64,000 nucleotides of DNA. It comes from Prevotella sp. (GTDB lineage Bacteria > Bacteroidota > Bacteroidia > Bacteroidales > Bacteroidaceae). Position numbers and translations under genes: made by a program. The stretch lies in contig JAGCOB010000014.1 of assembly GCA_017645645.1 (NCBI GenBank), positions 30,765 through 94,764 of the forward strand, written 5' to 3'. This document shows, one piece after another, positions 7,563-56,694 of the stretch (its first letter is position 1; each line of letters opens with the position of its first letter). The notes beneath the pieces are model-generated. The model saw only the letters and a program-made list of their open reading frames with translations, was not told the DNA's origin and searched no databases.

Positions 7563-7566
7563 AACC

Positions 7567-10281: not shown

Positions 10282-10316
10282 TTACGCCACCACCATGCAT
10301 TCATCATTCTTGTCAT
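10266..10316 (-). CDS. trpL: trp leader peptide with three consecutive Trp codons
   Basis: Sixteen codons, MTRMMNAWWWRNSRFK, followed by TAG. Three adjacent TGG codons at positions 8-10 are the sensor: at low charged tRNA-Trp the ribosome should stall here and the antiterminator forms. The ATG lies about 24 nt after the start expected from the -7 box at 10344-10351. The arrangement (short Trp-rich ORF plus terminator before trp genes in Bacteroidetes) is that of the Bacteroid-trp RNA motif described from comparative genomics. Length and codons are seen directly; the mechanism is inferred from the family. Confidence 0.9.
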   Translation of the reverse strand: MTRMMNAWWWRNSRFK

Positions 10317-10343
10317 ATATGATATATTTTTATGTTTTGGCTG

Positions 10344-10351
10344 CAAAAGTA
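10344..10351 (-). promoter_or_regulatory. trp operon promoter (-7 TACTTTTG, -33 TTTG)
   Basis: TACTTTTG on the minus strand with a TTTG at 10371-10374, 19 nt upstream: both elements of the Bacteroides consensus at the right spacing. Expected start near 10340. Confidence 0.85.
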
Positions 10352-10445
10352 CACATAATCTTTTAATCTGCAAACTTTTTTCATGTTTTTTTTACGATAT
10401 GAAACAAAATTATCTCAAAAACTTGCAAATCTGCTGATTTAGTAC

Positions 10446-10453
10446 TATATTTG
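10446..10453 (+). promoter_or_regulatory. promoter of a putative small RNA (-7 TATATTTG)
   Basis: TATATTTG on the plus strand, with a CTTG 20 nt further upstream as a candidate -33. No plus-strand protein gene follows; the structured element at 10459-10542 does. Confidence 0.55.
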
Positions 10454-10458
10454 CCCCC

Positions 10459-10542
10459 GATAAGACATCGTCGGCAATTGTTGACACCTTATCAAATTAT
10501 GAAGTGAGGTTGGTAGCGTCCTGCACCAACCTCTTTTCATTT
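10459..10542 (+). ncRNA. putative small structured RNA, about 80 nt
   Basis: Between the divergent trp promoter and the convergent ROK gene there is no reading frame, but the plus strand has a complete transcription unit. After the -7 box, GATAAG (10459-10464) pairs with CTTATC (10488-10493) and encloses a second hairpin (GTCGGC / GTTGAC, AATT loop). Then comes a terminator, GAGGTTGGT / ACCAACCTC (10506-10514, 10525-10533), followed by TTTTCATTT. The T-run is on the plus strand only, so this is not simply the ROK terminator. I do not recognise the RNA. It could act as a trans-acting sRNA, or antisense to the 3' end of the ROK message. Confidence 0.5.
10506..10542 (+). terminator. terminator of the putative small RNA
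   Basis: 9-bp perfect stem with a 10-nt loop and a T-rich tail running into the last bases of the ROK gene, which ends on the opposite strand at 10541. Confidence 0.7.
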
Positions 10543-29047: not shown

Positions 29048-29656
29048 TTAGATTTTATTGATATCAACGTATCCGTGCATCACCGCATAAATGGTGAGCG
29101 CGGATACGCTTTTTATACCCAGTTTCTCCACGATGTTCTTGCGGTGGGTAATCACCGTGGAGAGACCAATATGCAGGCGGTCGGCTATCTCTTTGTTGAT
29201 GAATCCCTGAACGATGAGTGACATAACCTCTATCTCACGGTCAGAGAGGATTTTCTGTTGCAGTACCTTGGGCATAGGAGGCAGATGCTCTCCCTTCCCA
29301 TGTGCATGCTGTGCCAGCATCAGAATCTGGCGGATCAGTTGAGGCTCTGGCTGGTTGATACAAAGACTATGGAACTCCGATAGTTGTGCGGTATCTTCCA
29401 GTTGCAGGGTCAGTACGATGGTCTTGCGCTGTCGCTCCAGGAAGAAGGGGCGTTCCTGAAGGACGATATTCATCGAGACGAAGTAATGGAAATAACTGTC
29501 AGGGTTGTTGGCTGTTAGTTCTGCGAAGGAGCCGAAAGTATCAACCGTCATAATGGGTATGACGTTCTGTAAGATCTGCTTCAGTCCTAATGTGGCTAAG
29601 GTATTTGCGTCGACAATAGCAATTCGGGGCCTTCCCTGTAGTGCGTGCTCCATCAC
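29048..29656 (-). CDS. LuxR-type regulator with non-canonical receiver domain
   Basis: 202 residues. The C-terminal HTH (residues about 137-195) is a clear LuxR/GerE domain: LSDREIEVMSLIVQGFINKEIADRLHIG read in pieces, then STVITHRKNIVEKLG. The N-terminal ~120 residues have a receiver-like fold (PRIAIVDANTLATLGLKQIL), but the acidic pair is reduced to one Asp and the strand that should carry the phospho-acceptor reads YFVSMNI, without Asp. It is therefore probably not controlled by phosphorylation. Starts 4 nt after the (p)ppGpp synthetase-domain gene and is the last gene of that operon. Confidence 0.85.
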   Translation of the reverse strand: MMEHALQGRPRIAIVDANTLATLGLKQILQNVIPIMTVDTFGSFAELTANNPDSYFHYFVSMNIVLQERPFFLERQRKTIVLTLQLEDTAQLSEFHSLCINQPEPQLIRQILMLAQHAHGKGEHLPPMPKVLQQKILSDREIEVMSLIVQGFINKEIADRLHIGLSTVITHRKNIVEKLGIKSVSALTIYAVMHGYVDINKI

Positions 29657-29660
29657 TTGT

Positions 29661-30755
29661 CTATTTGTTCATAAAGGCAAGCTTACTGGCTTGCTTGAGA
29701 ATAATCTCTGCCATGGCATTGTTATGTTCCGACTTCCCGTTGATGATGTCGAACATCCATTTTATTCCCTGTTTTCCTCCGTCAGACTTCAGGATATGCA
29801 CAATACAGAGATTCTGCAGTCCGACGTTGGAGGACAGAATGTCAATATCTGTGGAGCCTAACTGGAAGAGGGCCAGTTGGTAGGCATCGTCATCGTTCTC
29901 TTTGATCATGCGCTCCACGTCTCCTAAGGTATTCATGCCCATGGCCCGTAAGAGCTTGAGATAGGGCATCGGGGAGGATTGATGCAGTTCTGCCTGTGTG
30001 ATGGCTGCGATTCGCTTGTTGAGTTTGTCGAAAGGCTGCGTCTCCGTATAGGAACGGAAAGCGTCGCCGTCAAGGAGTACCTCCTCCAGTTTACCGTCTT
30101 GTACCAGACTCTGAATCTGTCGGCGGTAGTCGCTGATATCGGTACGGATACGGCTGAACTCGTTATCGGCAAGTTCCAGCATACCGGCTAAACGGCTCAG
30201 GGCGCGATGGTATTCCAGGGGAGTCTCTATCTCGCTCTTGTAGCCAATGTCGTGCTGGATGGCTGACCATACATGTTGCAGTGCCGTCCGCATCTGGAGT
30301 TCAAAAGGAATCTCGTTTAACTCCGGATACTGCTCGTCATAGAAGATGGTCTTGGGCAGTCTGCAGATATAATGCAGTGAGTTATAGCCGAAACTGTCGA
30401 ACTGGTGCATCTTACGCTTATCGATGGAGTTGGCCCAGTCGATGTCAAACAATGACTCTGCCATTGACGCAATGCGGTCGACATCCTCATTGTAGAACGT
30501 GATGATGCGTGCCCCGAAGATATCCGTGATATCTGTGATAGACTGATACTTGGAACCTTTCCGTTCCAACTTGCCGGCAAAGGATTCCTCAGCCTTGATA
30601 CGGGACTCCATGGAGTTCAGTTCGATACCGGCCTGCTTTACTAAGTCTTTGAGCTTTTTCATCACCACTTGCTGAAGAAGACTATACACAGGAAGTTTCT
30701 CCCGATAGTCTTCTAACAGCATGGTGCAGTGTAAGTCCAGTCCGTAGTCCTTCAT
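29661..30755 (-). CDS. RelA/SpoT synthetase-domain protein (GTP pyrophosphokinase)
   Basis: 364 residues from the ATG at 30755; a TTG at 30773 would add six residues and overlap the STAS gene. The synthetase domain covers residues about 40-210: KGSKYQSITDITDIFGARII, the G-loop SFGYNSLHYI, and IPFELQMRTALQHVWSAIQHDIGYK read in two parts. The HD hydrolase domain, TGS and ACT domains of long RSH enzymes are missing, so it is a small alarmone synthetase-like protein with an extra C-terminal helical half of ~150 residues. The usual AEH is AIQH here (Glu to Gln), so activity is likely but not certain. Follows the STAS gene by 4 nt. Confidence 0.85.
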   Translation of the reverse strand: MKDYGLDLHCTMLLEDYREKLPVYSLLQQVVMKKLKDLVKQAGIELNSMESRIKAEESFAGKLERKGSKYQSITDITDIFGARIITFYNEDVDRIASMAESLFDIDWANSIDKRKMHQFDSFGYNSLHYICRLPKTIFYDEQYPELNEIPFELQMRTALQHVWSAIQHDIGYKSEIETPLEYHRALSRLAGMLELADNEFSRIRTDISDYRRQIQSLVQDGKLEEVLLDGDAFRSYTETQPFDKLNKRIAAITQAELHQSSPMPYLKLLRAMGMNTLGDVERMIKENDDDAYQLALFQLGSTDIDILSSNVGLQNLCIVHILKSDGGKQGIKWMFDIINGKSEHNNAMAEIILKQASKLAFMNK

Positions 30756-30759
30756 GTAC

Positions 30760-31062
30760 TTATTTAATCTCAAAGAGATTGAAGAATCCGGTCATCATGA
30801 AGACCTTCTTGATCTCATCATTGATGTTCTCAATGATAACCTTTCCACCCTTTGCAGCAGTCTCTTTTCTGAGACTCAGGAAAAGACGAAGTCCCGAACT
30901 GCTAATGTATTCCAACTTAGAACAGTCAAGTGTGATCTCTTTGTCAGCATTGTCCATCAAGGGCTGCATGTCTTTAGCAGCCTGGATGGCAGCAGGAGTG
31001 TCAAGACGACCGTCCATCAGTGCGGTTAAACCGCCGTTTTGTTCTTTAATTTCAATCTTCAT
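30760..31062 (-). CDS. STAS-domain anti-sigma factor antagonist
   Basis: 100 residues, a bare STAS domain (MKIEIKEQNGGLTALMDGRLD). The phosphorylatable Ser is in the right place, DCSKLEYISSSGLRLF. In SpoIIAA/RsbV systems this Ser is phosphorylated by an RsbW-type kinase and dephosphorylated by a PP2C phosphatase; both activities are encoded upstream in the two SpoIIE-like genes. It should thus be the switch protein of this cluster. Its output partner is not a sigma-B (not known in Bacteroidota), so it is open. Confidence 0.92.
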   Translation of the reverse strand: MKIEIKEQNGGLTALMDGRLDTPAAIQAAKDMQPLMDNADKEITLDCSKLEYISSSGLRLFLSLRKETAAKGGKVIIENINDEIKKVFMMTGFFNLFEIK

Positions 31063-31071
31063 AGTGTAATC

Positions 31072-31869
31072 TTATTTTAAGAGAGCCTTACGGGCTGCGT
31101 TGATTTTATCTTTTGCTTCTGCAAGTTGAGCCTTCATCTCAGCAACACTGGTAGCGTTGAGAACCTCTAACGGAGCAAGAGCCTCGGCAACGGGCTTGAT
31201 GTCTGCGTCATATTCTGTGAGACGGTTGATGGCGTCGAGGATGACCACGATACGGAAGGTAACATCGGACACAGCCTCATCAGTGAATGTGCTGAGGAAC
31301 TTGTCGGTGTTCTGGTTCATGACATAGAGCTCCTCTACCAGAGCGGCTGCTGCCAACTGCCAGAAGAAGTTGACGCGTCCGTTCTCGTCCATAGCATCAT
31401 AGAGGGTAGTAGATGTCTCGAATACCGTGTTGGCATCGTCGATGGCCTTGAAAGAAGGATCGTTGATGTCGGCAATCAGTTTGGTGATGGCCTTGTCGTA
31501 GTCCTCTACAGGCATCTCATAGAGAGCAGCAATCTTCCTGTCTACGTTGAGGGCACTCAGGATGCGGTATTTCTCAGCCAGAGTAGTAGCCTCCTCGGCA
31601 GCACTGGCGGGCAACAGATAGTCGGGCTTCACCTGCTTCTCTTCCTTGGTGAGTGTGATACCACCGTTGTTCTCCTGTACGAAGGGCAGTTGCTTGAGTT
31701 TACCAAGGTCAGCAGCAATACTGTCGATGTGCATCTTGATGCTAGCCTCAATCTGCTGCTGTTCAAAACTCTTCAGAGAATCTGCACTCTCTGCGTTCTG
31801 GGCGTTTTTCTGTCCTCCACATGCTGCGAATAAGATGGCAGCGATTGCTAATACTGAAAATTTCTTCAT
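31072..31869 (-). CDS. lipoprotein of unknown function
   Basis: 265 residues. Lipoprotein signal peptide with lipobox LFAACGG, Cys at residue 17. The mature part is alpha-helical, rich in Ala, Glu and Lys, with Gln/Ser-rich linker after the Cys. No recognised domain. It stands between the ABCG-type transporter and the STAS gene in the same operon, which suggests a periplasmic or outer-membrane accessory of that system. It could bind the ligand or a lipid carried by the transporter; this is inference from position. Confidence 0.8.
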   Translation of the reverse strand: MKKFSVLAIAAILFAACGGQKNAQNAESADSLKSFEQQQIEASIKMHIDSIAADLGKLKQLPFVQENNGGITLTKEEKQVKPDYLLPASAAEEATTLAEKYRILSALNVDRKIAALYEMPVEDYDKAITKLIADINDPSFKAIDDANTVFETSTTLYDAMDENGRVNFFWQLAAAALVEELYVMNQNTDKFLSTFTDEAVSDVTFRIVVILDAINRLTEYDADIKPVAEALAPLEVLNATSVAEMKAQLAEAKDKINAARKALLK

Positions 31870-31912
31870 TGTTTTTAAATTTTTAAGTTATTAAATGTTT
31901 TATGTTTATTGT

Positions 31913-34804
31913 TCACTGTTGGTTTTTTCTGATATATCGACCTGGACGGTCTGTCAGTAAGAGGATGGTGACGATGATGCTCATCAGGAGCAGTACCGTC
32001 ATGTTGTATCGTAATGTCTTGATATGATAGGGTCCGATGATTTTCTCGCTACTATAGAAAGGAGCGCGTCCTATCTGGTTGCGAGGGGTGAGATAGACGG
32101 GACCGGTACGTGGGACGATGACATCGTCAATCACGTCGAGGAGTCTGCGATGACCGCCGCTGACTACAAAGTCTTCCAGTTTGAGGTTGAAGTTGTCGCG
32201 TTTCAGGTCAAGTAACGTCTCCTTGCCGTACTTCCTGATGAAGTCTGCCGTAAGGGCATCCACCTTGAGGGTTGCCTGATTGCTGCGCCTGGAGAGAATC
32301 TTCTCCGCCTCCTTCATGTAATCATACAATGAAGTATAAGAGGAGTCACCCTGATAGGGTTTCATGCCGCAGTATTCCGTCACGACAGGCAGGTTGGTAT
32401 GGATTACCTGCATGTGGTTGGGGTTGATGTCCTTGCCTTTCTTCTGCTCGTCTTTCAGTGTCTCCAGTTGTGACTGTATCTCATAGAGATAGCCGACATT
32501 ATAGAACTGTGTCTCGTATTTCTCTTTGTCCAAGTCGAAGAACATCCGTTCATATCTGTTGTCGGTAAACGATGTGACAGCGAGTGCCTCAAACGACCAG
32601 CGCGAAGGGATGAAGTCACCGATGACAGGTACATTGCCCGTCTTGCTCTTCGGGGTGAGATCAGCGAAACTGACGACCAAGCCGCAGAGCAGGATCTGTG
32701 GTATCAGCAACAATGGAATACTGATATAGATGGCGACCACTGAGTTCAGGCATTGTGAGAGCAACAGTCCTGTCAGGCCTGCCAGGAAGGTTGTGGCGAA
32801 CAGGATGAGCCACCATGTACAGAACAGTCCGTGCAGTCCCATAATCGTATTGCCGATGATGATAAACAGGAAGGTCTGTATCAGTGCGACACCTGCCATA
32901 TAGACAATCTTCGACCAGATATAACTGCCATACGACAGGTTCAGGAAGCTCTCGCGTTTCAACAAGGCACGGTCCTTGATAATCTCTTCCGCACTGCCGC
33001 TCATGCCGATGAAGGTGGCCACGATGACTGACATGAAGAAGTAACTCACGAGGTTTTTGTTGTTCATGACAGTATATTCACCTTGGGGGGCATAGCGTGT
33101 GAGGTAGGCACAGATGAGTGCCAGGACAGGGGCTTCCAACAATGTGATACACAGGTATTGGACGTTGGTGATCTTCGTCTTGATATTACGACGCAGGAAG
33201 ATAAAGAACTGCTTCAACTTGCCTGGCTTCTTCTGGTCCGATGGCGGCACGTCACTGACGGACGGTGCTTCCATCTCTTCCCTGTTCTTCAAATACATCT
33301 CATGCCACTCCTGTGGCGTTACTTTCCTTTCGTCCGAAGGTTCACCGGTATTGCTGAGTGCCTTCTCATCAATGATATTGAGTACAATCTCCGGATTGAC
33401 ATTACCACAGGTCGGGCAGGCACTGGTCTCCGCATCGGCATAGTTGGCTGCCTCCTTGAAATAAGTGATGGCATCAATGGGATTGCCGTCGAAGACAGGA
33501 TAGCCTCCTCTGTCAAGCAGCCACAGGCGGTCGAAGAGTTTATAGACATCACTCGACGGCTGGTGGATGTTGACGATGATAAGCTTGCCCTTGAAGGTCA
33601 ACTCCTTCAACAGGTTGATGACTTTCTCCGTATCAGCAGAAGACAGTCCGGATGTCGGCTCGTCCAGGAAGAGGACGGCAGGCTCACGGATTAGTTCCAA
33701 GGCAATGTTCAGACGCTTGCGCTGTCCGCCGGAGATGTATTTGTTGATGGCAGATCCCGCCTTTAAGTCCTTTACCGCATCCAGTCCCAAGTCCTTGAGG
33801 GTCTTCATCACACGCTTGTCGATGTCCTCGGCAGACATGCCCTCAAAACACAGCTTGGCGGTGTACCAAAGGTTCTGATAGACGGTGAGTTCCTCGATGA
33901 GCAGGTCGTCCTGAGGCACAAAGCCAATCAAATCCTTAGCGGCAGGCTCCGAGATATCGTGACCGTTGATGGTGATACTTCCCTCCTGCGGTTTAAGACT
34001 ACCGTTCAGCAGTGACAGCAAGGTCGTCTTACCTGTACCAGAGCCACCCATGATAGCGAGGAGTTCCCCGTTATGCAGGTTGAAGCTCAGGTCGTGCATG
34101 CCATTGTCACTATTGGGGAAGCGGAAGTTGATATTACGTCCACAGAATGTAACGTCTTCCGTCTTATCATCCTCGTTGCTATAGGCGCTGGCTATCGTCG
34201 AATAGTAGAGGGTTTTGCCGCTGCTGCTCTTCAGTACACTGCTCTGCAACCATACCTGATAGGCTCCGGAGAGGACAGGGACATCATTCAGCAGAACAGT
34301 ATCGTTGCCCATATAAGTGAAAATGAGCATTCCTGTCACGCTGTCCATCAGTGTCTTCAACGCTCCTTCAAAACCTTCGGGATGATGAATCATCACATGG
34401 GCAGTAGGCTGGTCGGTGGCATAGGCATAGAAGTCGTCAAACTGCGTCTTGGGGATATTGAACTTCTCTGCCATCGTCGTAAACATGCTGACAGCCTTCA
34501 GTCCGTCGTCGCTGCAGAACTCCATAAGACGCAACAACAGCAACGACTCTTCCTCAGGACGTATCTTCCCATGCAGACTGGAACAGATGGCTGCAACGGT
34601 CTCCTGCGTATTCAGGTTGTCCGTCATCTCATAAGCCCCTCGCATATCACTATATAAATCGAGATAGAGGTCTATGTTCCTGATGCCGAAATGATGACGC
34701 AAATAACTGACAAGCATGTCTTTAGCCCATGCCTCATCCACTTGCTCTTCCTTGCCGAACAGCGCAAACAGACTGATAAAACTGGATAGTATGACGTCAG
34801 TCAT
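31913..34804 (-). CDS. ABCG-type ABC transporter, fused ATPase and permease
   Basis: 963 residues. Residues 1-110: acidic helical domain recalling TerB-like modules. Residues about 225-440: ABC ATPase with Walker A GGSGTGKTTLL (~253-263), signature ISGGQRKRLN and Walker B VLFLDEPTSGLSS. A CPTCGN pair near 480 could bind metal. Residues about 545-960: ABC2-type permease with six or so helices and a large loop of ~200 residues before the last helix. The ATPase-before-permease order is that of eukaryotic ABCG half-transporters. Such proteins export lipids or small molecules. Own promoter (34822-34829); first gene of a five-gene operon running into the STAS, RelA-like and LuxR genes. Confidence 0.88.
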   Translation of the reverse strand: MTDVILSSFISLFALFGKEEQVDEAWAKDMLVSYLRHHFGIRNIDLYLDLYSDMRGAYEMTDNLNTQETVAAICSSLHGKIRPEEESLLLLRLMEFCSDDGLKAVSMFTTMAEKFNIPKTQFDDFYAYATDQPTAHVMIHHPEGFEGALKTLMDSVTGMLIFTYMGNDTVLLNDVPVLSGAYQVWLQSSVLKSSSGKTLYYSTIASAYSNEDDKTEDVTFCGRNINFRFPNSDNGMHDLSFNLHNGELLAIMGGSGTGKTTLLSLLNGSLKPQEGSITINGHDISEPAAKDLIGFVPQDDLLIEELTVYQNLWYTAKLCFEGMSAEDIDKRVMKTLKDLGLDAVKDLKAGSAINKYISGGQRKRLNIALELIREPAVLFLDEPTSGLSSADTEKVINLLKELTFKGKLIIVNIHQPSSDVYKLFDRLWLLDRGGYPVFDGNPIDAITYFKEAANYADAETSACPTCGNVNPEIVLNIIDEKALSNTGEPSDERKVTPQEWHEMYLKNREEMEAPSVSDVPPSDQKKPGKLKQFFIFLRRNIKTKITNVQYLCITLLEAPVLALICAYLTRYAPQGEYTVMNNKNLVSYFFMSVIVATFIGMSGSAEEIIKDRALLKRESFLNLSYGSYIWSKIVYMAGVALIQTFLFIIIGNTIMGLHGLFCTWWLILFATTFLAGLTGLLLSQCLNSVVAIYISIPLLLIPQILLCGLVVSFADLTPKSKTGNVPVIGDFIPSRWSFEALAVTSFTDNRYERMFFDLDKEKYETQFYNVGYLYEIQSQLETLKDEQKKGKDINPNHMQVIHTNLPVVTEYCGMKPYQGDSSYTSLYDYMKEAEKILSRRSNQATLKVDALTADFIRKYGKETLLDLKRDNFNLKLEDFVVSGGHRRLLDVIDDVIVPRTGPVYLTPRNQIGRAPFYSSEKIIGPYHIKTLRYNMTVLLLMSIIVTILLLTDRPGRYIRKNQQ

Positions 34805-34821
34805 TTCCTTATATAGATTTG

Positions 34822-34829
34822 CAAATTTA
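34822..34829 (-). promoter_or_regulatory. -7 box TAAATTTG for the ABC transporter operon
   Basis: Minus-strand TAAATTTG, 17 nt upstream of the ATG. It divides the cluster into two transcription units (38-40 kb side and 29-35 kb side), though read-through is possible as no terminator is seen in the 106-nt gap. Confidence 0.55.
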
Positions 34830-34910
34830 TTAAAAAAAATACGTTAGCCTCTTATCGTACCAGTTAAAAAATACTAAAGGGCATTGTTTCTATATCTTCT
34901 GGGTAGTATA

Positions 34911-37265
34911 TTATGTCAAGTTTTTTCGTAGTGTGAGAACGTTCATTCCGTCTATTCGTTCGTAGTTGACGGAGTCCATGATTTGTCTGACCAGATGGAT
35001 ACCTAATCCTCCGATGGAGCGTTCTTCCACACTCAGTGTAGTGTCAACGGCTTCTTTCTTCGTCGGGTCAAAGGCAATGCCAGTGTCTGTGATGACGAAT
35101 TTGAGACGCTTGTCAGTGTAGACAGCGTCGATGTCCACAAGTCCCTTTCCATTCTGATAGGCATAGAGGACCACATTCGTGACAGCCTCTTCCAGCGCGA
35201 GGTTCAGACTGGCGACGAGTGCCATGTCAACACCAGCCTCCTCACAAACAGAGTCAACGAACTCAGGCAGTTTGTTGAGCTCCTCCACCTCATTCTTGAG
35301 GGTCAGGTGCTTGGATCTTGCCTGCTCGTCTTGTTGGTGCAGATATTTGATACTCAGCATGGTCAAGTCGTCGCTCTGCTCCGCACCGCCGGCATGTTTG
35401 GTAACGGTATCGGTCATGATGTTAATCTGCTCGTGTGGTGTGAGACTATACATCTTATGTGCAACGGCAAGGGCTTGGTCGTCTCCTAATTGCTCATGCA
35501 CTTTGTTCTCCGCCTCGTTGAGTCCGTCAGTGTAAAGGAAAATGGTTGCACCATAAGGAATGATACATTCTTGTTCCTCAAACCGGAAGTCGGGCATGAT
35601 ACCTAACGGCAGATTAGGAATAATGTCAAGGAAGTGGACATCGTCCTGCTTGATGGCGATGGGCGCATTATGTCCGGCGTTACAATACCTCAACCGACCT
35701 GTAGGCATGTCAAGGATACCCATGAAGAAGGTGACGAACATATTAGAGTCGTTGTCTTTTGCCATTGCGTCGTTGATGGCATTGACAATCTTCGCAGGAC
35801 GGTTCTCATGGGTGGAGACAGTACGGAACAGGGAACGTGTGACAGCCATCACCAACGAGGCAGGTACTCCCTTTCCACTCACGTCGCCGATGCAGAAGAA
35901 CAGTTTCTCGTCACGGATATAGAAGTCGAACAAATCGCCTCCCACCTCCTTGGCAGGTCTCAGTCGTCCATAGATATCAATATCGTCTCTTTCTGGATAA
36001 GCAGGGAATATCTTGGGGAGCATCGACTGCTGGATGTTACTAGCAGTCTTTAACTCACCTTCTATCAAGGCTTTAGAGGCAGTGGTCTCCTTCAGCTCCT
36101 CAATATAGTTTGTAAGCGAATGCTGCATGTTGTTGAACGACTGACTGAGTTGCCCGATTTCATCTGTTCTCTGGGTTGGCGGCAACGCCTCGTCGAAATG
36201 TCCGGATGCGATGGTCTCTGCCCCATGTGCCAGTTGTTGAAGCGGTTTCAGTTCCTTGGTGATAATACGACTGAACACCAAGAGCATGATAACCAATCCG
36301 AGGATAATGATACCCGTCACAATCTTCAACAGTCGGAAATAGCCTCCGAAGATGTCACTTTCCGAACAGACAATGGCAACGCTCCATCCTGTAGTGCCAA
36401 GGGGTTTGTAGAATACATAGCAGTCTTTTCCGTCAACGACCATCTGATGCATGCCTTCCTCTCCGTTCTGCATGGCATGACCGAGGTTGGTGATGGCAGT
36501 GTCAGGCTTCAGCAGCGTCTCCGTATAGATGGTCTGATAGAACAGTTTCGTGGTGTCTGGATGTACGAAATAAGTACCGCTTTGTCCTATCATGATACTG
36601 TAGGAGTTGGGGTAGGGCTTGACGGCAGATATGGTATTCGAGAGCCAGTCTAACGACAAGTCGACAGACATGGTTCCTACATACTGACCTTTATTATCTT
36701 TCAACGGTTTACAATAGGAGATAATTCTGCCAGGAGAGGAGGTGTCACCATTCGAATTATCTATGAAAGGTTCTGTCCAACAGGGACGGTTCAGCAGTTT
36801 AGGTAACTGATACCAGTCCATGACAAAATATTCGAAAGACTCATTGCCTTCCTGCATCGTCAGGATTCCGTCACTTCTTCTCACGGAGTAGGCAGAGAAG
36901 AAACGTCCTTTTTCTTTAAAGAAATAAGGTTCGAAGGAGATCGAACAACCATTCAGTTCCGGGTTATTGACAAGGATACGCCGACAGTATACGAACATGG
37001 AGTCGGGAGCATCCAGATGTCGGGCAGCGAGCCAGTCAGTGTTGTTGGTGGCTACCTCCACTTTCGTAAGAATGGTGTTTACACGTTCTGCCGTATTATC
37101 CAGAATCTGGGTGGCATGGTTGATGGCCTCCTGCCGTATGGCTTTTCGTGACTGAATGAACATGAAACCGAGGGCAATCAGAAAGATAAGGGCAGCAAAG
37201 AGTACTATCCACAGGCTAAGTCGGGTGGATAGTGAACTTTTGATATGATTAAACGGATGCTTCAT
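34911..37265 (-). CDS. membrane sensor with PP2C (SpoIIE/RsbU) phosphatase and RsbW-type kinase domains
   Basis: 784 residues. Order: membrane helix (~17-40), periplasmic dCache-like sensor (~45-300, with WTEPFIDNSNGDTSSPGRIISY), second helix (~310-335), HAMP (~340-395), PP2C phosphatase (~425-620, metal-binding Asp in EVGGDLFDFY, GDVSGKG and SDDLTML), and HATPase kinase (~650-784, N-box LALEEAVTNVVLYAY, TDTGIAFDP, GGLGIHL). Both enzymatic sites look intact, so one protein could both phosphorylate and dephosphorylate a STAS protein such as the one at 30760-31062. Paralogue of the gene at 38215-40599. Confidence 0.93.
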   Translation of the reverse strand: MKHPFNHIKSSLSTRLSLWIVLFAALIFLIALGFMFIQSRKAIRQEAINHATQILDNTAERVNTILTKVEVATNNTDWLAARHLDAPDSMFVYCRRILVNNPELNGCSISFEPYFFKEKGRFFSAYSVRRSDGILTMQEGNESFEYFVMDWYQLPKLLNRPCWTEPFIDNSNGDTSSPGRIISYCKPLKDNKGQYVGTMSVDLSLDWLSNTISAVKPYPNSYSIMIGQSGTYFVHPDTTKLFYQTIYTETLLKPDTAITNLGHAMQNGEEGMHQMVVDGKDCYVFYKPLGTTGWSVAIVCSESDIFGGYFRLLKIVTGIIILGLVIMLLVFSRIITKELKPLQQLAHGAETIASGHFDEALPPTQRTDEIGQLSQSFNNMQHSLTNYIEELKETTASKALIEGELKTASNIQQSMLPKIFPAYPERDDIDIYGRLRPAKEVGGDLFDFYIRDEKLFFCIGDVSGKGVPASLVMAVTRSLFRTVSTHENRPAKIVNAINDAMAKDNDSNMFVTFFMGILDMPTGRLRYCNAGHNAPIAIKQDDVHFLDIIPNLPLGIMPDFRFEEQECIIPYGATIFLYTDGLNEAENKVHEQLGDDQALAVAHKMYSLTPHEQINIMTDTVTKHAGGAEQSDDLTMLSIKYLHQQDEQARSKHLTLKNEVEELNKLPEFVDSVCEEAGVDMALVASLNLALEEAVTNVVLYAYQNGKGLVDIDAVYTDKRLKFVITDTGIAFDPTKKEAVDTTLSVEERSIGGLGIHLVRQIMDSVNYERIDGMNVLTLRKNLT

Positions 37266-37269
37266 GTTA

Positions 37270-38205
37270 CTATTTTGCTATAATTTCTTGATAGGTAATT
37301 TCACGTCCTAACATCATGTGCTCCATCATCAGCCTGCTGGCTTGCTTTACCATATCAGGGCGCAGCCGGAATTCACGTTTCTTAGACTCACGGTCTACTT
37401 GCAAGCGGAGGATGTCTGTCAGCATCAACTGTTGCAGTACGCGGTTGGTGGCAATATGATCTTTTTGTACGTAGCGCATGACGATATCCAGTGTCTCTTC
37501 AGGATGGGCGGCAGCCCATTCCCATCCTTTTCTGCTGGCAGCAGCAAAGCGATGAGCCTGTTCCCTGTGTTTCATGTAATAATCACGTGACATATAGACG
37601 CCGTCCTCCTGTACGTTATAGCCATGATCACAGAAACGGTATACATTGTTTTTCGTAGGTATGAACCCAGCCTGTACCAACTGGTAGTACTCATTATAAC
37701 TCATAGCCAAAGTAGCATCGATGGCACCAGATACAAAGAGGTTGATATTACTGGCATAGGGAATCCATTGATAATCAAGTCCCTCTTTGATACTCATACA
37801 GATGGCAATTTGTCCGAAACCTGCATTCCAGATACCTACCTTGGCACCTTTCTGTGTCAAAGGGTTCTTGTTTCGGCGAGATGCTATCACCAAGGCATTG
37901 TTCATGGAAGTCTGCAGGATGTTGACCAAGGGGATGCCGTTGTCGATGATATCCATCGCCTGTACCAACTGTAAGGTGGTTGCATGACTCTCATTGTTAC
38001 GGATACGACTCATCGCCGATTGCGTGACAGACGGATGGACAATCTCGACATCAATGCCGGCTTGCTTGTAGAAACCTTTCTCCTGAGCAACATAATAGCC
38101 TGCAAACTGAGCTTGGGCACTCCATTGTGGTGTGAAGACCAGTTTGTCCTGTGCATAGGTTGCCGTATAAAAGAGCAACAACAGATATGTGACGGTTTTT
38201 CTCAT
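37270..38205 (-). CDS. NMT1/THI5-like periplasmic binding protein, no permease nearby
   Basis: 311 residues with signal peptide (about 19 residues, MRKTVTYLLLLFYTATYAQ). The fold is recognised from FTPQWSAQAQFAGYYVAQEKGFYKQAG and IVHPSVTQSAMSRI, typical of NMT1/THI5 and SsuA-type solute-binding proteins that bind pyrimidine precursors, sulfonates or similar. There is no lipobox and no ABC permease or ATPase of the importer type next to it. It lies 4 nt upstream of one sensor gene and 9 nt downstream of the other, so I infer that it presents a ligand to their Cache domains rather than feeding a transporter. Confidence 0.85.
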   Translation of the reverse strand: MRKTVTYLLLLFYTATYAQDKLVFTPQWSAQAQFAGYYVAQEKGFYKQAGIDVEIVHPSVTQSAMSRIRNNESHATTLQLVQAMDIIDNGIPLVNILQTSMNNALVIASRRNKNPLTQKGAKVGIWNAGFGQIAICMSIKEGLDYQWIPYASNINLFVSGAIDATLAMSYNEYYQLVQAGFIPTKNNVYRFCDHGYNVQEDGVYMSRDYYMKHREQAHRFAAASRKGWEWAAAHPEETLDIVMRYVQKDHIATNRVLQQLMLTDILRLQVDRESKKREFRLRPDMVKQASRLMMEHMMLGREITYQEIIAK

Positions 38206-38214
38206 GCTTATTAT

Positions 38215-40599
38215 TTAGGGTTGAGTGTTAAGTCTCTTAATTAGTGTCAGCACATTTTTGCCTTTGATGCGCTCGTAGTTGACAGAGTCCATGATCTGTC
38301 TGACCAGATGGATCCCCAGTCCTCCAATTTGACGCTCTTCCACGCCAAGTGTGGTGTCTACTTCTTCTTTTTGGGTAGGGTCAAAAGCGGAGCCTGTGTC
38401 CGTAAGGATGAATTTAAGGTACTTGTCCGTATAGACAGCCTCAATATCCACATCTCCCTCGTCCTTTCCATAGGCATAGAGAACGACATTGGTGGCAGCC
38501 TCCTCCAAGGCAAGGTTCAGACTGGCGATGAGTGCCATGTCAATACCTGCTTCTTCACAAACGGTATCTACGAATTCCGGCAGTTTATTGAGTTCCTCTA
38601 CTTTGTTTTTGAGGATTAAGTGACGTGACTTCGCCTGCTCGTCATGTTGATATGTGTATTTGATACTCAGCATCGTCATGTCATCACTCTGCTCCGCACC
38701 GTTTACATGTTTGTTGACAGCCTGCGTCATCTTATTGATTTGTTCCTGTGGTGAGAGGTTGAATGCATCCTGTTCGACAGCAAGGATACGTTCGTCACCG
38801 AGTTGTTCGTGCTGGTTATTCTCTGCCTCGTTGAGTCCGTCAGTAAACAGGAAGATAGTGGCACCATGGGGCATCCATGTCTCCTGCTCCTCAAATTGGA
38901 AGTCAGTGACGACACCTAAAGGTATGTTGGGAATAACCGGAAGGAAATCCACTTCGTCTTGTTTGATGAAGATAGGTGCATTATGTCCAGCGTTACAATA
39001 CCTCAACCGGCCTGTAGGAAGGTCGAGGACACCCATGAAGAAGGTCACGAACATGTTGGACTCGTTGTCTCTTGCTATTGCATCATTGATGGTATTGACA
39101 ACCCTCGAAGGACGGTTCTCATGAGAAGAGAAGGAACGGAACAGGGAACGTGTGACAGCCATCACCAACGAGGCAGGTACGCCTTTCCCACTGACGTCAC
39201 CAATGCAGAAGAACAGTTTCTCGTCACGGATATAGAAATCATAGAGGTCACCGCCGACTTCCTTGGCAGGAGCCAATTGCCCGTAGATGTCTAAGTCATC
39301 CCTTTCGGGGAAAGGCGGGAATGTCTTGGGAAGCATCGACATCTGGATGTGACGGGCGGTATGCAGTTCACCTTCTATACGACCTTTCTCCTCATTCATG
39401 ATCTTGGTCTCTTCAATCTGTTTGACAAGCGAGGTCTGCATGGTCTCAAACGAGTTACGCAGGCGGAGCATCTCGTCTTTGCTCTTAATCTTCGGCAGTT
39501 CTGCCTGGAAGTTTCCTTTGGCAATCTCATCGGCAGAGTCGGCAAAGCGACGTAGCGGTTTGGTGATGCGGCGGATTACTCCGCGACAAATCAGTGCCAC
39601 GATGATAAGTCCGATAACCATGAAGACGATGAGTGCTGTCAGGAAATAGAAGACAGGATTGAGAATGTTCATCAAGGGGATAATCACTCCCATCGTCCAA
39701 TCCGTATGTTCTATGGGTGAGTAGAACATGATGTAGACATTGTTGTTCTTACTTATAAAGATCTTCGATTTCCCTTTCTGTGTGTCTGATATATTTACGG
39801 AGTTTTTGGCATTCTCCTTGAAGAAGTCTTGGATGGTCTTATTAAGCACATAGGCTTCATTTGGATGTACTACAAAGGTTCCCTCACGGGACACGATGAA
39901 ACTATAGGCTTGTTCGGACATGTCATCCCATGACCAGTTTAAATGATCATTGTAGGTGTTATCCATCTCCTTGGTGAGGTCTGACAGCCAGTCTAATGAG
40001 ATATCTGCTGTCTGAACGGCATAGAATTCTCCCCGGCTGTTAATCAATGGCAAGGAATAGGTAATCATCGGAACCTCTCCGCCACCCTTGTCAATGTAAG
40101 GCTCAGACCACACACCCTCTCCCAACTCTATGGGTCGTTGATACCATTCCTGATGCTGATAGTCATACTCCTTATCCGTCAGTTGTTTTGTATGGATGCC
40201 TGTGCTGTCGCGATAGGCGTATGGTGAGAAAGGCTGTCCTTTCTTAGGCTCATAGTTCGGGTTGTAGGCAACGGCAGCTCCAACGATATTTGGATTGAGG
40301 ACTAGCAAGTTTTCCTGGGCAAAATACAGACGATGATCGTTACCCATGTTCTCCTGCACCTCTGGCACGTTGTTGGTTACGGCAGTCTCTACAGTGGCGA
40401 AAACATTGTTGATTCTCTCATTGGAGACTTGTATGGCAGTGACGTTCAGCAATAAGAGGAGGATAAATCCCGCTATACAGATGATGAAGAGGATAAAGGC
40501 AAGAATCGCTGTAAATACCACCGTCATAGACAGGATAACACGCCATGTCAGTCTCTTGGCGATGGAGCTTTTACGCTTGAATATGCGTGGTAGTTTCAT
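38215..40599 (-). CDS. membrane sensor with PP2C phosphatase and RsbW-type kinase domains (paralogue)
   Basis: 794 residues, same architecture as the protein at 34911-37265 and very similar from the PP2C domain onward: stretches such as IRDEKLFFCIGDVSGKGVPA and SLVMAVTRSLFR are identical, while the periplasmic sensors differ strongly. Metal Asp residues (GGDLYDFY, GDVSGKG, SDDMTML), the N-box EEAATNVVLYAY and DTGSAFDP are present; the G1 Gly-x-Gly is less regular than in the paralogue. Tandem duplication followed by divergence of the sensing part is the simplest history. First gene of the cluster, promoter at 40624-40631. Confidence 0.92.
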   Translation of the reverse strand: MKLPRIFKRKSSIAKRLTWRVILSMTVVFTAILAFILFIICIAGFILLLLLNVTAIQVSNERINNVFATVETAVTNNVPEVQENMGNDHRLYFAQENLLVLNPNIVGAAVAYNPNYEPKKGQPFSPYAYRDSTGIHTKQLTDKEYDYQHQEWYQRPIELGEGVWSEPYIDKGGGEVPMITYSLPLINSRGEFYAVQTADISLDWLSDLTKEMDNTYNDHLNWSWDDMSEQAYSFIVSREGTFVVHPNEAYVLNKTIQDFFKENAKNSVNISDTQKGKSKIFISKNNNVYIMFYSPIEHTDWTMGVIIPLMNILNPVFYFLTALIVFMVIGLIIVALICRGVIRRITKPLRRFADSADEIAKGNFQAELPKIKSKDEMLRLRNSFETMQTSLVKQIEETKIMNEEKGRIEGELHTARHIQMSMLPKTFPPFPERDDLDIYGQLAPAKEVGGDLYDFYIRDEKLFFCIGDVSGKGVPASLVMAVTRSLFRSFSSHENRPSRVVNTINDAIARDNESNMFVTFFMGVLDLPTGRLRYCNAGHNAPIFIKQDEVDFLPVIPNIPLGVVTDFQFEEQETWMPHGATIFLFTDGLNEAENNQHEQLGDERILAVEQDAFNLSPQEQINKMTQAVNKHVNGAEQSDDMTMLSIKYTYQHDEQAKSRHLILKNKVEELNKLPEFVDTVCEEAGIDMALIASLNLALEEAATNVVLYAYGKDEGDVDIEAVYTDKYLKFILTDTGSAFDPTQKEEVDTTLGVEERQIGGLGIHLVRQIMDSVNYERIKGKNVLTLIKRLNTQP

Positions 40600-40623
40600 G
40601 AGTTCTTAGTTTAATATCCGTCG

Positions 40624-40631
40624 CAAAGATA
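40624..40631 (-). promoter_or_regulatory. -7 box TATCTTTG for the sensor-phosphatase genes
   Basis: Minus-strand TATCTTTG, 24 nt upstream of the ATG at 40599, packed directly behind the terminator at 40633-40672. Confidence 0.7.
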
Positions 40632-40684: not shown

Positions 40685-41842
40685 TTATGAAAGGAATCCA
40701 AGCAAGGCTCCAGCCGCTACTGCTGAGCCGATAACACCGGCGACATTCGGTCCCATCGCGTGCATGAGCAGGAAGTTATGACGGTCATATTCCAATCCGA
40801 GGTTGTTGGAGATACGTGCTGCCATTGGTACGGCACTTACACCGGCATTGCCAATCAGCGGATTCAGTTTCTTGTCCTTAGGCAGGAAGATATTCATGAT
40901 TTTCACGAAACAAACACCGCTCATCGTAGCGATGATGAAAGCACCGGCTCCAATCATAAAAATATAGATGGTGTTTATGGTCAGGAACTCCGAGGCTTGT
41001 GTAGAGCATCCCACCGTCAGTCCGAGCAGCATCACGACGATATCGTTCAGTGCGGCACCTGCCGTCTTGGCAAGTCGGGTGGTCTTTCCTGACTCCTTCA
41101 GCAAGTTACCGAAGAATAACATACCCAACAAAGGAAGACCGGAAGGTACGATGAAGGTTGTCAGCAGGAGTCCGATGATAGGGAAGAGGATACGCTCTGT
41201 CTGTGATACCTCGCGGGCGGGCTTCATCTTGATGACGCGCTCCTTCTTGGTGGTGAGCAGACGCATCAATGGTGGCTGGATCAGTGGTACCAGTGCCATA
41301 TATGAATAGGCGCAGACGGCAATGGCTCCCATCAGGTTCGGGGAGAGCTTGCTTGACAGGAAGATGGCGGTAGGACCGTCGGCACCTCCGATGATGGCGA
41401 TACCTGCAGCCTGGTTTGGCTCAAAGCCCAGGGCGAGGGCAAACATATAGGCACCGAAGATACCAAACTGGGCTGCCGCGCCTATCAGCATCAGTTTTGG
41501 ATTAGCAAGCAGGGCGGAGAAATCTGTCATGGCACCGATTCCTAAGAATATCAGTGGTGGATACCATCCCTGACGGACACCTTGATAGAATATATTCAGT
41601 ACAGAGTTGTCCTCATAGAGTCCAATCTCCAGTCCGGCATCAGCACGGAAGGGAATGTTTCCCAGGATAATACCCAGACCGATGGGAACAAGCAGTAACG
41701 GCTCAAAGTCTTTCTTGATAGCAAGCCAGATGAAGAGCGCACCTACTGCTATCATGATGAGGTTTCCTGCCGTAGCGTTGGCAAAGCCCGTATAGGTCAG
41801 GAACTCATTGAAGTTTTCGATAATAAAATTCGTAAATCCCAT
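40685..41842 (-). CDS. Na+-translocating decarboxylase beta subunit (methylmalonyl-CoA or oxaloacetate type)
   Basis: 385 residues, very hydrophobic, about nine to eleven membrane helices. Family motifs: FLGIGAMTDFSALLANPK, GGADGPTAIFLSSKL (the Na+-binding Asp region) and NAGVSAVPMAARISN. The subunit decarboxylates the carboxybiotin and pumps Na+ out. With mutA-mutB next door, a methylmalonyl-CoA decarboxylase (MmdB) of the propionate pathway is the likelier identity, but oxaloacetate decarboxylase (OadB) cannot be excluded from this subunit alone. Confidence 0.9.
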   Translation of the reverse strand: MGFTNFIIENFNEFLTYTGFANATAGNLIMIAVGALFIWLAIKKDFEPLLLVPIGLGIILGNIPFRADAGLEIGLYEDNSVLNIFYQGVRQGWYPPLIFLGIGAMTDFSALLANPKLMLIGAAAQFGIFGAYMFALALGFEPNQAAGIAIIGGADGPTAIFLSSKLSPNLMGAIAVCAYSYMALVPLIQPPLMRLLTTKKERVIKMKPAREVSQTERILFPIIGLLLTTFIVPSGLPLLGMLFFGNLLKESGKTTRLAKTAGAALNDIVVMLLGLTVGCSTQASEFLTINTIYIFMIGAGAFIIATMSGVCFVKIMNIFLPKDKKLNPLIGNAGVSAVPMAARISNNLGLEYDRHNFLLMHAMGPNVAGVIGSAVAAGALLGFLS

Positions 41843-41874
41843 ATTATAGCGGTAGCAAATTATTCACTTTTCAC

Positions 41875-42357
41875 TTATCCAATGGTCAGCAATACGGTAC
41901 CTTCCATCACGGAGTCACCTGGGTTGACAGTAATGGAGGTAACAGTACCGGCATATTCAGCCTCAATGTTGTTTTGCATCTTCATCGCTTCCAAAATGAT
42001 GACGACATCACCGATGCTCACAGTGTCACCTACCTTCACATTAATAGCATTGACGGTACCTGGCAGCGGTGCCTTCACAGGATTGCCGGCTCCTGCGGGC
42101 GCTGCTTGTGTGGCCTGTGGTTTTGCCACTGGTTGAACTGGTGCTGCTACAGGGGCTACGGGTGCTACGGGCGCCTCGGCTGCTGGTGCTGTTTTCTTGG
42201 TAGCAGCCAGCGCAGGGTGCTTAGCAGCATTGATGGGTTTCTGCATCTCAATCTCAAATGGGATGCCGTTGACGTTAACTCTGGCTATCTTGCCTTCTAC
42301 TTCGGCGATTTCTACTTCGTAGTCTACGCCTTGTACTTTATACTGATATGTCTTCAT
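41875..42357 (-). CDS. biotin carboxyl carrier subunit of the decarboxylase
   Basis: 160 residues. N-terminal conserved start YQYKVQGVDYEVEI, a flexible Ala/Pro/Val linker (about residues 50-90), and the C-terminal biotinyl domain with the biotinylated Lys in LEAMKMQN. It carries CO2 from the carboxyltransferase to the membrane subunits. Lies between the gamma-like and beta subunit genes, 17 nt after the former. Confidence 0.93.
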   Translation of the reverse strand: MKTYQYKVQGVDYEVEIAEVEGKIARVNVNGIPFEIEMQKPINAAKHPALAATKKTAPAAEAPVAPVAPVAAPVQPVAKPQATQAAPAGAGNPVKAPLPGTVNAINVKVGDTVSIGDVVIILEAMKMQNNIEAEYAGTVTSITVNPGDSVMEGTVLLTIG

Positions 42358-50505: not shown

Positions 50506-53500
50506 TTAATCTTCAAAGAAGTCGAAGCCGGCGATAGCTTGGAAGAAACGGTCGACATAGTCCCATGACGTGGGCGACCAATAGAAGCCCTGCCGGTATA
50601 GTACCTGCATGGTGTAGTCATTGACTTCTTGTACGGTGACAGCCTCCTGACCGTGGGTAACATCGCTATAAGCGACCAGACTCTGAAGACGCTCGACCTT
50701 CTCGGGGTCGGACTTCACCTGTTCCAATATCTTCAGGAATTCATCCTGCTCCACCATGCGCACAGGCGTACCAACAGAAGCCAGTTCACCGAGTACGTCA
50801 CCGAGGAATACGTTGTGATTGTTGTAAGGATGGAACATACAACATTCGCGCGGTGTGGTCGTCAGCAGGCATATGGCATGTGCCACCTCATTGATGGGCG
50901 AGAACTCGACAGGGTTCGTGAAACTGTCATAGGGACAGCATCCTAACAGACTGTAGGCGCGCATCATGTTGGCAAAACTGTTGGTTTGGAAATTTACCTG
51001 GAACTCACCGTCCGTAGAACGGGCAGCGAGGTTGCCTACACGCATAACCTTGCCAACGAGACCCTTGGTGGCTATGGCATCAAGAACGATACGCTCGGAG
51101 AGGAATTTCGAAAGGGTATACTGATTGCCCAGATACTGGTTCAGGAAGAGATGCTGCTCGTCCAGGAACGCCTTGTCAGCCGTCTCACCATGTGTTAGGA
51201 AGCCGCTCACGCTGACGGTGGATATCTGAATGAGCTTGGCTCCCGTTTTCAGGCATAAGTCTACGCAGCGTTGCGTACCTTCTACATTGACGCGCTCGAT
51301 GTCCCCGTCTTTGGAGAAGTGTTTCACGATAGCGGCACAGTTGAAGACGGTATCAATGTCTGTTGCTGTGTCACAGCAACATGCAGAACAGAGGTCGTCG
51401 GTAACATCGCCATTGATGACCCGCAGGCGACCACTTTCAAAGAGGTCGCGATAGGCAGATGCGAAATAGTAGTATAGGAGCGTCTGCAGGCGTCGCTGTG
51501 CCTCCGTTTTGCTCTTGGCGCGCACCAGACAAGTGATCGTCTCAGCATTGGAACTGATGAGTTCGTGGAGCAGGTGAATACCTAAGTATCCCGTGGCACC
51601 TGTGAGGAACACATGACCTAACGTCAGTGGCGTTCCCTTACAGAAGGCATCGATAGTACCACCAGCCAGTACTTTGTCGATGGCGGTATAGTCGAAGTCC
51701 TTCACTTCCGATTCCAACTCTCCACCAACCTCTGAATTCTCGCCTTTTAGCAGGGCGGCAATCTGTCGGGGCGTGGGATTGTCAAAGACATCACCGTAGA
51801 CCAGATGGTACCCGATCTTATCCACATCGATAATCAGGCGCGTGACGACAAGTGACGTGCCGCCCAGTTCGAAGAAGTCGTCAGTGGCTCCCACACGTTC
51901 CACCTGTAGGATATTGGCGAAAATGTCGCAGAGCTGTTTCTCGAGTTCTCCCGCTGGTGCCACATATGCTGTCGTCACGGAAAGCGTCGGTTCGGGCAGT
52001 GCCTTCATGTCTGTCTTGCCACTCGGTGTGGTAGGCATCTTATCGAGTTGGAGATAGGCAGTGGGTACCATGTATTGGGTCAGGCTCTTGCCAATCTCCA
52101 CCTTCAGTTCTTCGATATCCACAGGATGATTGGCAGTGAAGTAGGCGCAGAGATGTTCCTTGCCGTTGATCTTGCGAATCATCACAACGACCTGTCCGAT
52201 ACCCTCCTGTTGGGCTATCACACTCTCTATCTCACCCAGTTCGATACGCAGGCCACGCAGCTTCACCTGGTTGTCGGTACGTCCGAGGATGGTGACATAG
52301 CCGCGTTCGTCCCAACGGGCATAGTCGCCGGAACGATAGAGCGTCTTGTCAAGAGCATCGCCAGTGACAAACGGATTGGGGATGAATGCCTCGCGTGTCT
52401 TCTCCGGCAGGTTGTTATAACCTAAGCCCACCTGTGCACCACCTATCAGCAGCTCACCGACGACACCCACTGGTACACGGTTCATGTCGGCATCGACGAT
52501 GTATTCGGTCACGTTGACCAATGGACGGCCGATGGTGACATGGTCGTCGTGTGTCACCTCGTGACTGTTGCTCTCTACTGTCGTCTCAGTAGGACCGAAG
52601 CTGTTGAAAAGATGGGCTTTCGTGGCCTTTTGCAGTTCACGCAGTTGGCTGTCAGAGAATTTCTCACCGCCTAGCTCGATGATATGGCAGCCTGCCAGTG
52701 CCTGACGGAAGGTGTCCGACTCATAGAGCTGCATCAGACGTGAGGGTGTACCTTGGAACATTCCCACGTTGTTCTCCACCATGAATTCCGCCAGTAGGAT
52801 GGGGTCGTTGGCTATCTCGTCGCTGGCTAATGCCAAGGTGAGCCCGTTGTAGAGCGGAATACCGATTTCTTCGACAGAGGCGTCGAAGGAGATGGTGGCC
52901 AGTCCGAGGATACACTTCACCTCCTGCATCACCGTCCAGTTGCGGAAGTTGAGAGGATGGGCGAAGAGCTCGTTACAGATACCGCTGTGGTGGAGCATCA
53001 CACCCTTGGGACGACCCGTTGAACCTGACGTATAGATAATGTACGCGAGGTCACTGCCTTCCTGCGGAATGGCAGGGTTAGCCGTATTCTGGCATTGCAG
53101 TAGTTCTTCGACATTCAGGGCTTTCTCCAGTACTTTAATACTTCCCTCACCGGCTTGTGCCTTCAGGTTTGCCAGGTTCTCATCGTCAGTAACGATATAG
53201 GCAGCCTCTGAATCTTCGAGAATCAGTTTGATACGGTCGGCAGGATAGTGCGGGTCACAGGGAATGTATGCTGCACCAGCTTTCATAATACCGAACATGG
53301 TAAAGATGAGACGACTGGTACGCGGCAGTAACATAGCTACGCGGTCACCGCGTTTCACACCATGGGCAATGAGTGCATTCGCCACACGGTTCATCTCGGC
53401 ATTCAGTTGACTGAAGGTAAAGGTGCCGTCGCAGGCAACAAGTGCTTTGGCATCAGGTTTGTGCTCTGCATTTGCCTCGATGGCGTGATGGAACAGACGG

Positions 53501-56583: not shown

Positions 56584-56629
56584 ATCCGTCGTTTTTAGTT
56601 TTGGCGTTATTTGTTTGATTAACTCGAGG

Positions 56630-56637
56630 CAAAGATA
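56630..56637 (-). promoter_or_regulatory. -7 box TATCTTTG for the NRPS gene
   Basis: Minus-strand TATCTTTG, 46 nt upstream of the ATG at 56583; it fixes the start choice. Confidence 0.7.
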
Positions 56638-56694
56638 CAAAAAAATATGATATTACCATCAATGTTATATGATAATTTACAATCCTCTTCTCCG

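Follow-up and report, generated by a model that had tools for sequence, protein, structure and literature searches.

A cluster of eight genes on the minus strand of the Prevotella sp. window studied here (the whole analysed stretch, 64,000 nt; locus 29048-40599) joins proteins of the partner-switching type to a small alarmone synthetase (SAS). The pairing of a partner switch with such a synthetase recurs as a module in the Bacteroidales, and the arrangement exceeds chance, as the synteny is found in many genomes. With a little better than even confidence, we regard the window cluster as the Prevotella version of this module, with the SAS as its main output. This suggests an undescribed route from an outside signal to (p)ppGpp in Bacteroidales.

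An earlier, sequence-only reading of this DNA had described eight genes of this content and order on one strand, and all eight open reading frames (ORFs) are present on the minus strand, with domains found by Pfam and NCBIfam. It had also given each of two sensors a PP2C phosphatase and an RsbW-type kinase; both activities are encoded twice, but as domains of the sensor polypeptides and not as separate genes. The eight genes (product lengths in amino acids, aa) are:

SP1, 38215..40599, minus strand: dCache/MCP-like PDC sensor, HAMP, SpoIIE (PP2C) phosphatase and RsbW-type HATPase kinase in one protein, 794 aa (Pfam/NCBIfam)
SBP, 37270..38205, minus strand: NMT1/THI5-like binding protein between SP1 and SP2, 311 aa
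SP2, 34911..37265, minus strand: second dCache-HAMP-SpoIIE-HATPase protein, 784 aa
ABCG-type exporter, 31913..34804, minus strand: ABC_tran ATPase and ABC2_membrane domain, 963 aa
LIPO, 31072..31869, minus strand: lipoprotein without a Pfam family, 265 aa
STAS, 30760..31062, minus strand: anti-sigma-antagonist-like switch protein (PF01740, 3.7e-16), 100 aa
REL (the SAS), 29661..30755, minus strand: RelA_SpoT protein (PF04607, 1.9e-16), small alarmone synthetase, 364 aa
LUXR, 29048..29653, minus strand: receiver-like N-terminal half and GerE helix-turn-helix, 201 aa

Linkage of the synthetase to partner-switch genes

Two sets of relatives were compared. Among 251 genomes of the family, 39 have an SAS match at E < 1e-60 (split over two contigs in G147 and with two internal stops in G113) and eight more have weaker matches only; the family draw comprises 37 of these 39 loci (L031-L067), the window genome and G006 being left out. 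The SAS family is not a rare one: tblastn (E ≤ 1e-3) gave 572 matching genome stretches, of which the nearest 80 were examined as the named set (L071-L150). This set overstates the family-wide rate because its loci are those most similar to the query. Of its 80 record titles, 32 name ruminant or horse samples. The two sets overlap in part (e.g. L031/L103) and were pooled only for conserved residues, counted over distinct sequences, and for gene orders. ORFs of at least 60 aa in the relatives were labelled by local hidden Markov models (HMMs) seeded from phmmer matches and motif picks. The labels CVRA, APH, HD and LIPO are our own; one example each of HD, CVRA, APH and STAS was checked against Pfam, and the SpoIIE, kinase and binding-protein labels come from the HMMs only. 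Linkage was counted for genes on the strand of the SAS and no more than 5 kb away from it.

The sequence-only reading was to count as refuted if homologues of these genes were not neighbours in related genomes; the comparison does not refute it. A STAS gene accompanies the SAS in 72 of the nearest 80 of the 572 stretches and in 22 of the 37 family-draw loci. Within the named set a kinase is found in 69 loci, SpoIIE in 53 and an HD hydrolase in 40, and the STAS gene lies directly upstream of the SAS (≤150 bp) in 60. The family draw has a kinase in 22, SpoIIE in 20, an HD hydrolase in 25 and at least one switch gene in 26. Across 117 loci, including those cut by contig ends and 9 in which the SAS stands alone, the core genes occur in 41 orders; the set is kept while the order varies.

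Counts of free-standing STAS genes point the same way. These were defined by our own limit as open frames of less than 250 aa, the longer frames dropped being mostly permease-sized, and 68 of them occur in 38 of the 39 SAS genomes. Uniform placement would put 0.28 of them within 5 kb of an SAS; we find 23, in 23 of the 39 genomes. Where a genome has exactly one free STAS (n = 18), 13 carry it at the SAS, and all 11 genomes with a single SpoIIE-kinase match have one free STAS, at the SAS in 9. The SpoIIE-kinase query itself matches in 38 of 39 SAS genomes vs 53 of 212 others (Fisher p 1e-18, uncorrected for shared ancestry, some matches covering the SpoIIE part only).

Coevolution was assessed by a mirror-tree comparison, that is, by partial correlations of pairwise distances among STAS, SAS and kinase. 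Over 66 loci these are 0.51 for STAS-SAS, 0.51 for STAS-kinase and -0.08 for SAS-kinase, the pattern expected if STAS touches both partners, and the STAS-SAS value is 0.59 in the 29 loci where the two genes are adjacent. A reading of STAS as the coevolutionary bridge between kinase and SAS (0.62 and 0.60, 54 loci) is not counted as proof, as its STAS-SAS part fails for non-adjacent genes.

Some clusters hold additional genes. The SAS-STAS cluster repeatedly includes a Na+/H+ exchanger with a TrkA_C domain, together with a gene of the APH fold (L046, L049, L050, L056 and similar loci; Pfam on the L056 examples), and the cluster of L048 holds a CitMHS transporter. Long STAS or SAS ORFs in L063, L094 and L112 overlap their neighbours in another frame and are read as probable upstream start choices.

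Synthetase, hydrolase and switch proteins

RelA_SpoT is the only Pfam family over cut-off in REL, with HD, TGS and ACT absent, and for this reason we call it a small alarmone synthetase. Its start is most likely the ATG at 30755, which gives 364 aa, rather than a TTG overlapping STAS. Residues ~10-210 align with small synthetases in the PDB (YjbM, YwaC and others, E down to 1.8e-18), and the motif blocks match those of YjbM; the synthetase motif residues R52, K54, D78, G81, R83, Y124, S126, H128, E152 and Q154 are each found in 115 of 115 distinct sequences. The window SAS differs from YjbM and YwaC (RelP/RelQ) in its genomic tie to partner switching and in an added C-terminal region of ~155 aa (aa ~211-364), which is family-specific and conserved within the family. 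A profile search of this region against the PDB gave five matches, none with a stretch passing alone (best E 0.005, a TAL-repeat protein). A role in defence is a further possible reading: over aa 28-164 REL matches the PADLOC model of the candidate PDC-S33 (E 7e-14); in the same search STAS, the lipoprotein and the hydrolase had no match. Toxic SAS modify tRNA instead of making (p)ppGpp; for REL, (p)ppGpp synthesis is the predicted activity.

A second, distant SAS type of about 290-320 aa occurs in 4 of the 251 genomes. At L070 (G012, 8836-10553) it has STAS and kinase genes alongside, which we count in favour of a synthetase output, and at L166 (G151, 5115-8977) it shares a strand with a binding-protein-like gene, an ABC ATPase and STAS. 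No STAS was found within the fetched stretch in L165 and L167. Transporter genes that look by eye like SLC13 are close by in L070, L165 and L166.

The SAS cluster of many relatives also contains a ~190 aa HD_4 protein (one example Pfam-checked), which we take to fit a small alarmone hydrolase of the Mesh1 type. Its HD and ED motifs are present in 63 of 63 distinct sequences, a result that is partly circular because the model seeds were picked by that motif. In L058, HD and SAS form one open frame, the sole fused ORF with SAS, and in G063 the hydrolase lies beside a binding protein and a sensor-phosphatase-kinase with the SAS on another contig. The presence of a predicted synthesizing and a predicted degrading enzyme in one partner-switch cluster suggests that the cluster serves nucleotide turnover, and (p)ppGpp or a like nucleotide is favoured as output because STAS associates with the SAS and, in relatives, with the hydrolase.

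The hydrolase query further matches a 748-772 aa frame in 14 of 14 genomes checked, including that of the window; on this match we take the frame for a putative long Rel, and the window SAS would then be an addition to the alarmone enzymes of the genome. For the window genome, which is 64% complete, this query finds the long frame only, with no hydrolase gene near the cluster.

The residues expected of a working switch are conserved (numbering of domain cut-outs for the first two proteins). In distinct model-matching sequences the PP2C (SpoIIE) motif aspartates are retained (D11 78/78, D28 78/78, D200 77/77), as are the N-box Glu/Asn and G boxes of the GHKL kinase (E45, N49, D79, G81 and G107, each 94/94). 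The sequence-only reading had pointed to a phosphorylatable serine in the STAS protein, and Ser54 and Ser55 are indeed invariant in 96 of 96 distinct sequences; Ser55 is the candidate phosphosite, which we equate with Ser58 of SpoIIAA. Judged by sequence, the proteins make up a putative RsbU/W/V-type set, with a PP2C bearing the motif aspartates, a GHKL kinase with N and G boxes and a STAS protein with the serine. The best NCBIfam match of both SP1 and SP2 is the SiaA model, far under its cut-off.

Partner-switch genes are not confined to single copies. The window genome has more sets elsewhere (L171, L172 and L173), with SpoIIE-kinase and STAS at L171 5255-7639 and SpoIIE, kinase and STAS at L172 4896-7703. 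In L071, L072, L091 and L116 a tandem pair of STAS genes stands ahead of the SAS, the two copies belonging to different STAS clades.

The Prevotella version and competing explanations

The window cluster is likely transcribed as two units, SP1-SBP-SP2 and ABCG-LIPO-STAS-SAS-LuxR. This is expected because the motif TANNTTTGC, presumably the Bacteroidota -7 box, precedes both SP1 and ABCG and occurs 24 times in the window vs 5.8 expected. The two sites are:

TATCTTTGC, 40623..40631, minus strand: candidate Bacteroidota -7 promoter motif upstream of SP1
TAAATTTGC, 34821..34829, minus strand: candidate Bacteroidota -7 promoter motif upstream of ABCG, in the gap after SP2

The tight spacing claimed by the sequence-only reading holds for lipoprotein-STAS (9 bp), for STAS-SAS (4 bp from the STAS stop to the ATG) and for SAS-LuxR (7 bp), but not between SP2 and the exporter gene, which are 106 bp apart. 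The N terminus of SBP looks by eye like a signal peptide, and no ABC permease was found among the neighbouring genes. The exporter begins with an extension of about 220 aa that matches no Pfam family, and LIPO follows ABCG in the examined loci where both are labelled. LUXR has no Pfam receiver match (E up to 0.05), and its presumed phospho-acceptor site, placed by our own reading, holds D in 8, N in 4, E in 2 and T in 1 of 15 aligned orthologues; its N-terminal half thus appears receiver-like without a conserved phospho-Asp.

These additional genes belong to one subset of loci. In the named set, 27 loci are of Prevotella type (L071-L096 and L116) and 53 are not. STAS is within 5 kb in all 27, with ABCG nearby on the same strand in 17 and the LuxR gene in 19, and the HD_4 hydrolase is within 5 kb of the SAS in 0 of 27 vs 40 of the other 53. 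An ABCG-LIPO pair does occur at L101, which is not of Prevotella type, farther off and on the other strand. In a phylogenetic tree, the window STAS falls in a 30-member clade (support 0.91) that holds SAS plus ABCG, SAS-only and four ABCG-only loci. This clade nests in a larger one of STAS mostly from SAS and hydrolase loci (100-residue alignment, midpoint root, weak at depth), and because of this nesting the SAS link looks older than the ABCG link, a root-dependent result. The simplest reading is that an old STAS-SAS module was joined in Prevotella by ABCG-LIPO and LuxR and that SAS was later lost in some lineages, and STAS in the Prevotella lineage may have two outputs.

The ABCG-LIPO-LuxR part has to be weighed as a rival or second output, because it is a component of the Prevotella version and is also found together with STAS in loci that lack SAS. 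It is possible, though in our view rather unlikely, that the STAS switch of the window lineage acts on the exporter and lipoprotein, the LuxR-type regulator, or both, with the SAS carried along or forming an additional arm of the regulon. In a set of 200 genomes of the genus, ABCG occurs in 61, SAS in 68 and both in 39, so that ABCG is found in 39 of 68 SAS genomes vs 22 of 132 others. Twelve hand-chosen ABCG loci without SAS nearby have the lipoprotein in 11, STAS in 7 (3 on the other strand) and SpoIIE, kinase or both in 6; G603 and G626 keep the order SpoIIE-kinase, ABCG, LIPO, STAS with no SAS match at E ≤ 1e-60, and the STAS of L184, L185, L189 and L190 are the four ABCG-only members of the window clade. 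Against this reading, among the 53 loci not of Prevotella type none has ABCG or the LuxR gene nearby on the same strand while 45 keep STAS within 5 kb, and the midpoint-rooted tree, subject to its root, makes the SAS link look the older.

A second alternative dispenses with contact altogether: the genes would form one stress operon in which STAS and kinase have their target elsewhere in the genome and the SAS responds through shared transcription only. Shared orientation would explain the linkage, several SAS loci have no switch genes and the mirror-tree signal depends on adjacency. Against it, STAS, SAS and often the hydrolase stay together under varied gene orders, and there are genomes whose only free STAS and only SpoIIE-kinase match go with the SAS; we consider this explanation unlikely.

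Several of these results, the two loci of G603 and G626 among them, weigh against the SAS as the main output of the module. Within the family draw, switch genes are missing from the 5-kb neighbourhood in 11 of 37 loci, all of them among the 32 loci with full 5-kb flanks, and the same is true of 7 of the nearest 80 of the 572 stretches (4 of the 60 with full flanks). STAS accompanies only 10 of 20 further SAS loci of the genus, hand-chosen from 74 matches. Among the eight distant SAS sampled in the family, only those of L070 and L166 have a STAS nearby, and none is present in the stretches fetched around 14 more distant ones from the phylum (L151-L164). No STAS-SAS fusion occurs among the loci scanned. 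In the 16 loci where STAS and SAS are not adjacent the STAS-SAS partial correlation is 0.21, with an interval through zero, and STAS-kinase is 0.73; because the signal fades there, linkage alone may explain it. Four free STAS genes and no fewer than seven SpoIIE matches occur in the window genome itself, which makes the pairing of STAS with kinase and SAS in this genome uncertain. The sequence-only reading had left the STAS protein to control the RelA-like enzyme, the LuxR protein or the exporter. Synteny and the association with SAS and hydrolase now favour a (p)ppGpp-type output; the fading mirror-tree signal and the presence of ABCG-LIPO with STAS where SAS is lacking leave the exporter and the LuxR protein as possible outputs.

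Two neighbouring regions are described for completeness. A sodium-pump decarboxylase beta subunit and a biotin-carrier-like gene adjoin the cluster (40685-42357), and similar-looking genes near a distant SAS (L153, 10641-14227) are probably a coincidence. At 50506-56640 on the minus strand, a 2044 aa protein reads as non-ribosomal peptide synthetase-like, with two adenylation modules and, at its end, a reductase-like region.

Proposed mechanism and relation to known systems

Taking the SAS as the main output, the module may work as follows. The dCache domain would detect a periplasmic ligand, perhaps with the NMT1-type orphan binding protein as intermediary, and the ligand would set the balance of PP2C phosphatase and GHKL kinase within one polypeptide. 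That balance would set the phosphorylation of STAS at Ser55, for which the residues are in place and the activity is predicted. Unphosphorylated STAS would bind the SAS, most likely at its family-specific C-terminal region, and switch it on to make (p)ppGpp or a related pyrophosphorylated nucleotide; activation is our guess, only slightly ahead of inhibition, and follows the example of SiaC and SiaD. In many other Bacteroidales the product would be broken down by the distinct HD hydrolase that the cluster encodes, and in the window lineage, with no hydrolase gene near the cluster, the long Rel would have to do so. The ABCG exporter, the lipoprotein and the LuxR-type regulator may have joined there as further outputs. 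More tentatively, and at less than even confidence, the module could be an alarmone pathway of its own, driven by a sensor and not dependent on the ribosome-linked Rel, in which the phospho-state of STAS directly gates the SAS and the paired hydrolase resets it, the Prevotella STAS driving both alarmone synthesis and the ABCG exporter.

The closest functional parallel is SiaABCD of Pseudomonas aeruginosa, and by analogy with it we infer that STAS controls the SAS. As far as the accessible parts of these reports go, SiaA and SiaB balance the phosphorylation of SiaC (PMC7647112), which binds and activates the diguanylate cyclase SiaD (PMC8457831). Both systems have a PP2C and a kinase that balance a phospho-switch protein, with a nucleotide second-messenger synthase as output, known there and predicted here. 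In the module described here that output would be an alarmone synthetase, the kinase is fused to the phosphatase, hydrolase, transporter or exporter genes stand alongside, and the switch protein matches STAS, a family different from that of SiaC. No GGDEF (diguanylate cyclase) domain was found by Pfam among the eight proteins; the cluster resembles SiaABCD in its presumed working and is not a member of it.

Two further systems share parts of this design. In Vibrio fischeri, kinase and phosphatase of a single polypeptide, SypE, act on a downstream STAS protein, SypA, according to the available text (PMC10120452); SypE, unlike SP1 and SP2, is a kinase-receiver-phosphatase without a dCache sensor, and its output is biofilm, not known as an alarmone enzyme. 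The Bacillus sets RsbU/RsbW/RsbV and SpoIIE/SpoIIAB/SpoIIAA likewise combine a PP2C, a GHKL kinase and a STAS protein with a conserved serine, in the portion of the source consulted (PMC11418112). Their output is a sigma factor, whereas Pfam finds none among the eight genes here, no genome-wide search for one having been made.

Alarmone enzymes of the group have been surveyed before. In the accessible part of a 2011 census, Rel and RshB are typical of Bacteroidia (8 taxa) and one further group is marked, by column count divRel, a group of unplaced synthetase-only proteins (PMC3153485), so some Bacteroidia SAS may have been noticed earlier without their context. Judging from excerpts, other papers treat RelA domains in conflict systems (PMC7159879), the SigB switch and, separately, the small synthetases of B. 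subtilis (PMC10212131), and riboswitch candidates (PMC11109978). Our search of titles and abstract openings, with most subscription papers and all preprints outside its reach, found, among the papers listed, no description that connects an alarmone synthetase with partner switching through STAS.

Known alarmone control in bacteria runs mainly via ribosomes, transcription or nucleotide allostery. If the proposal is true, a phospho-switch gating the SAS would give an extracytoplasmic ligand direct control of (p)ppGpp, and would point to a function for the SpoIIE-RsbW-STAS sets of Bacteroidales.

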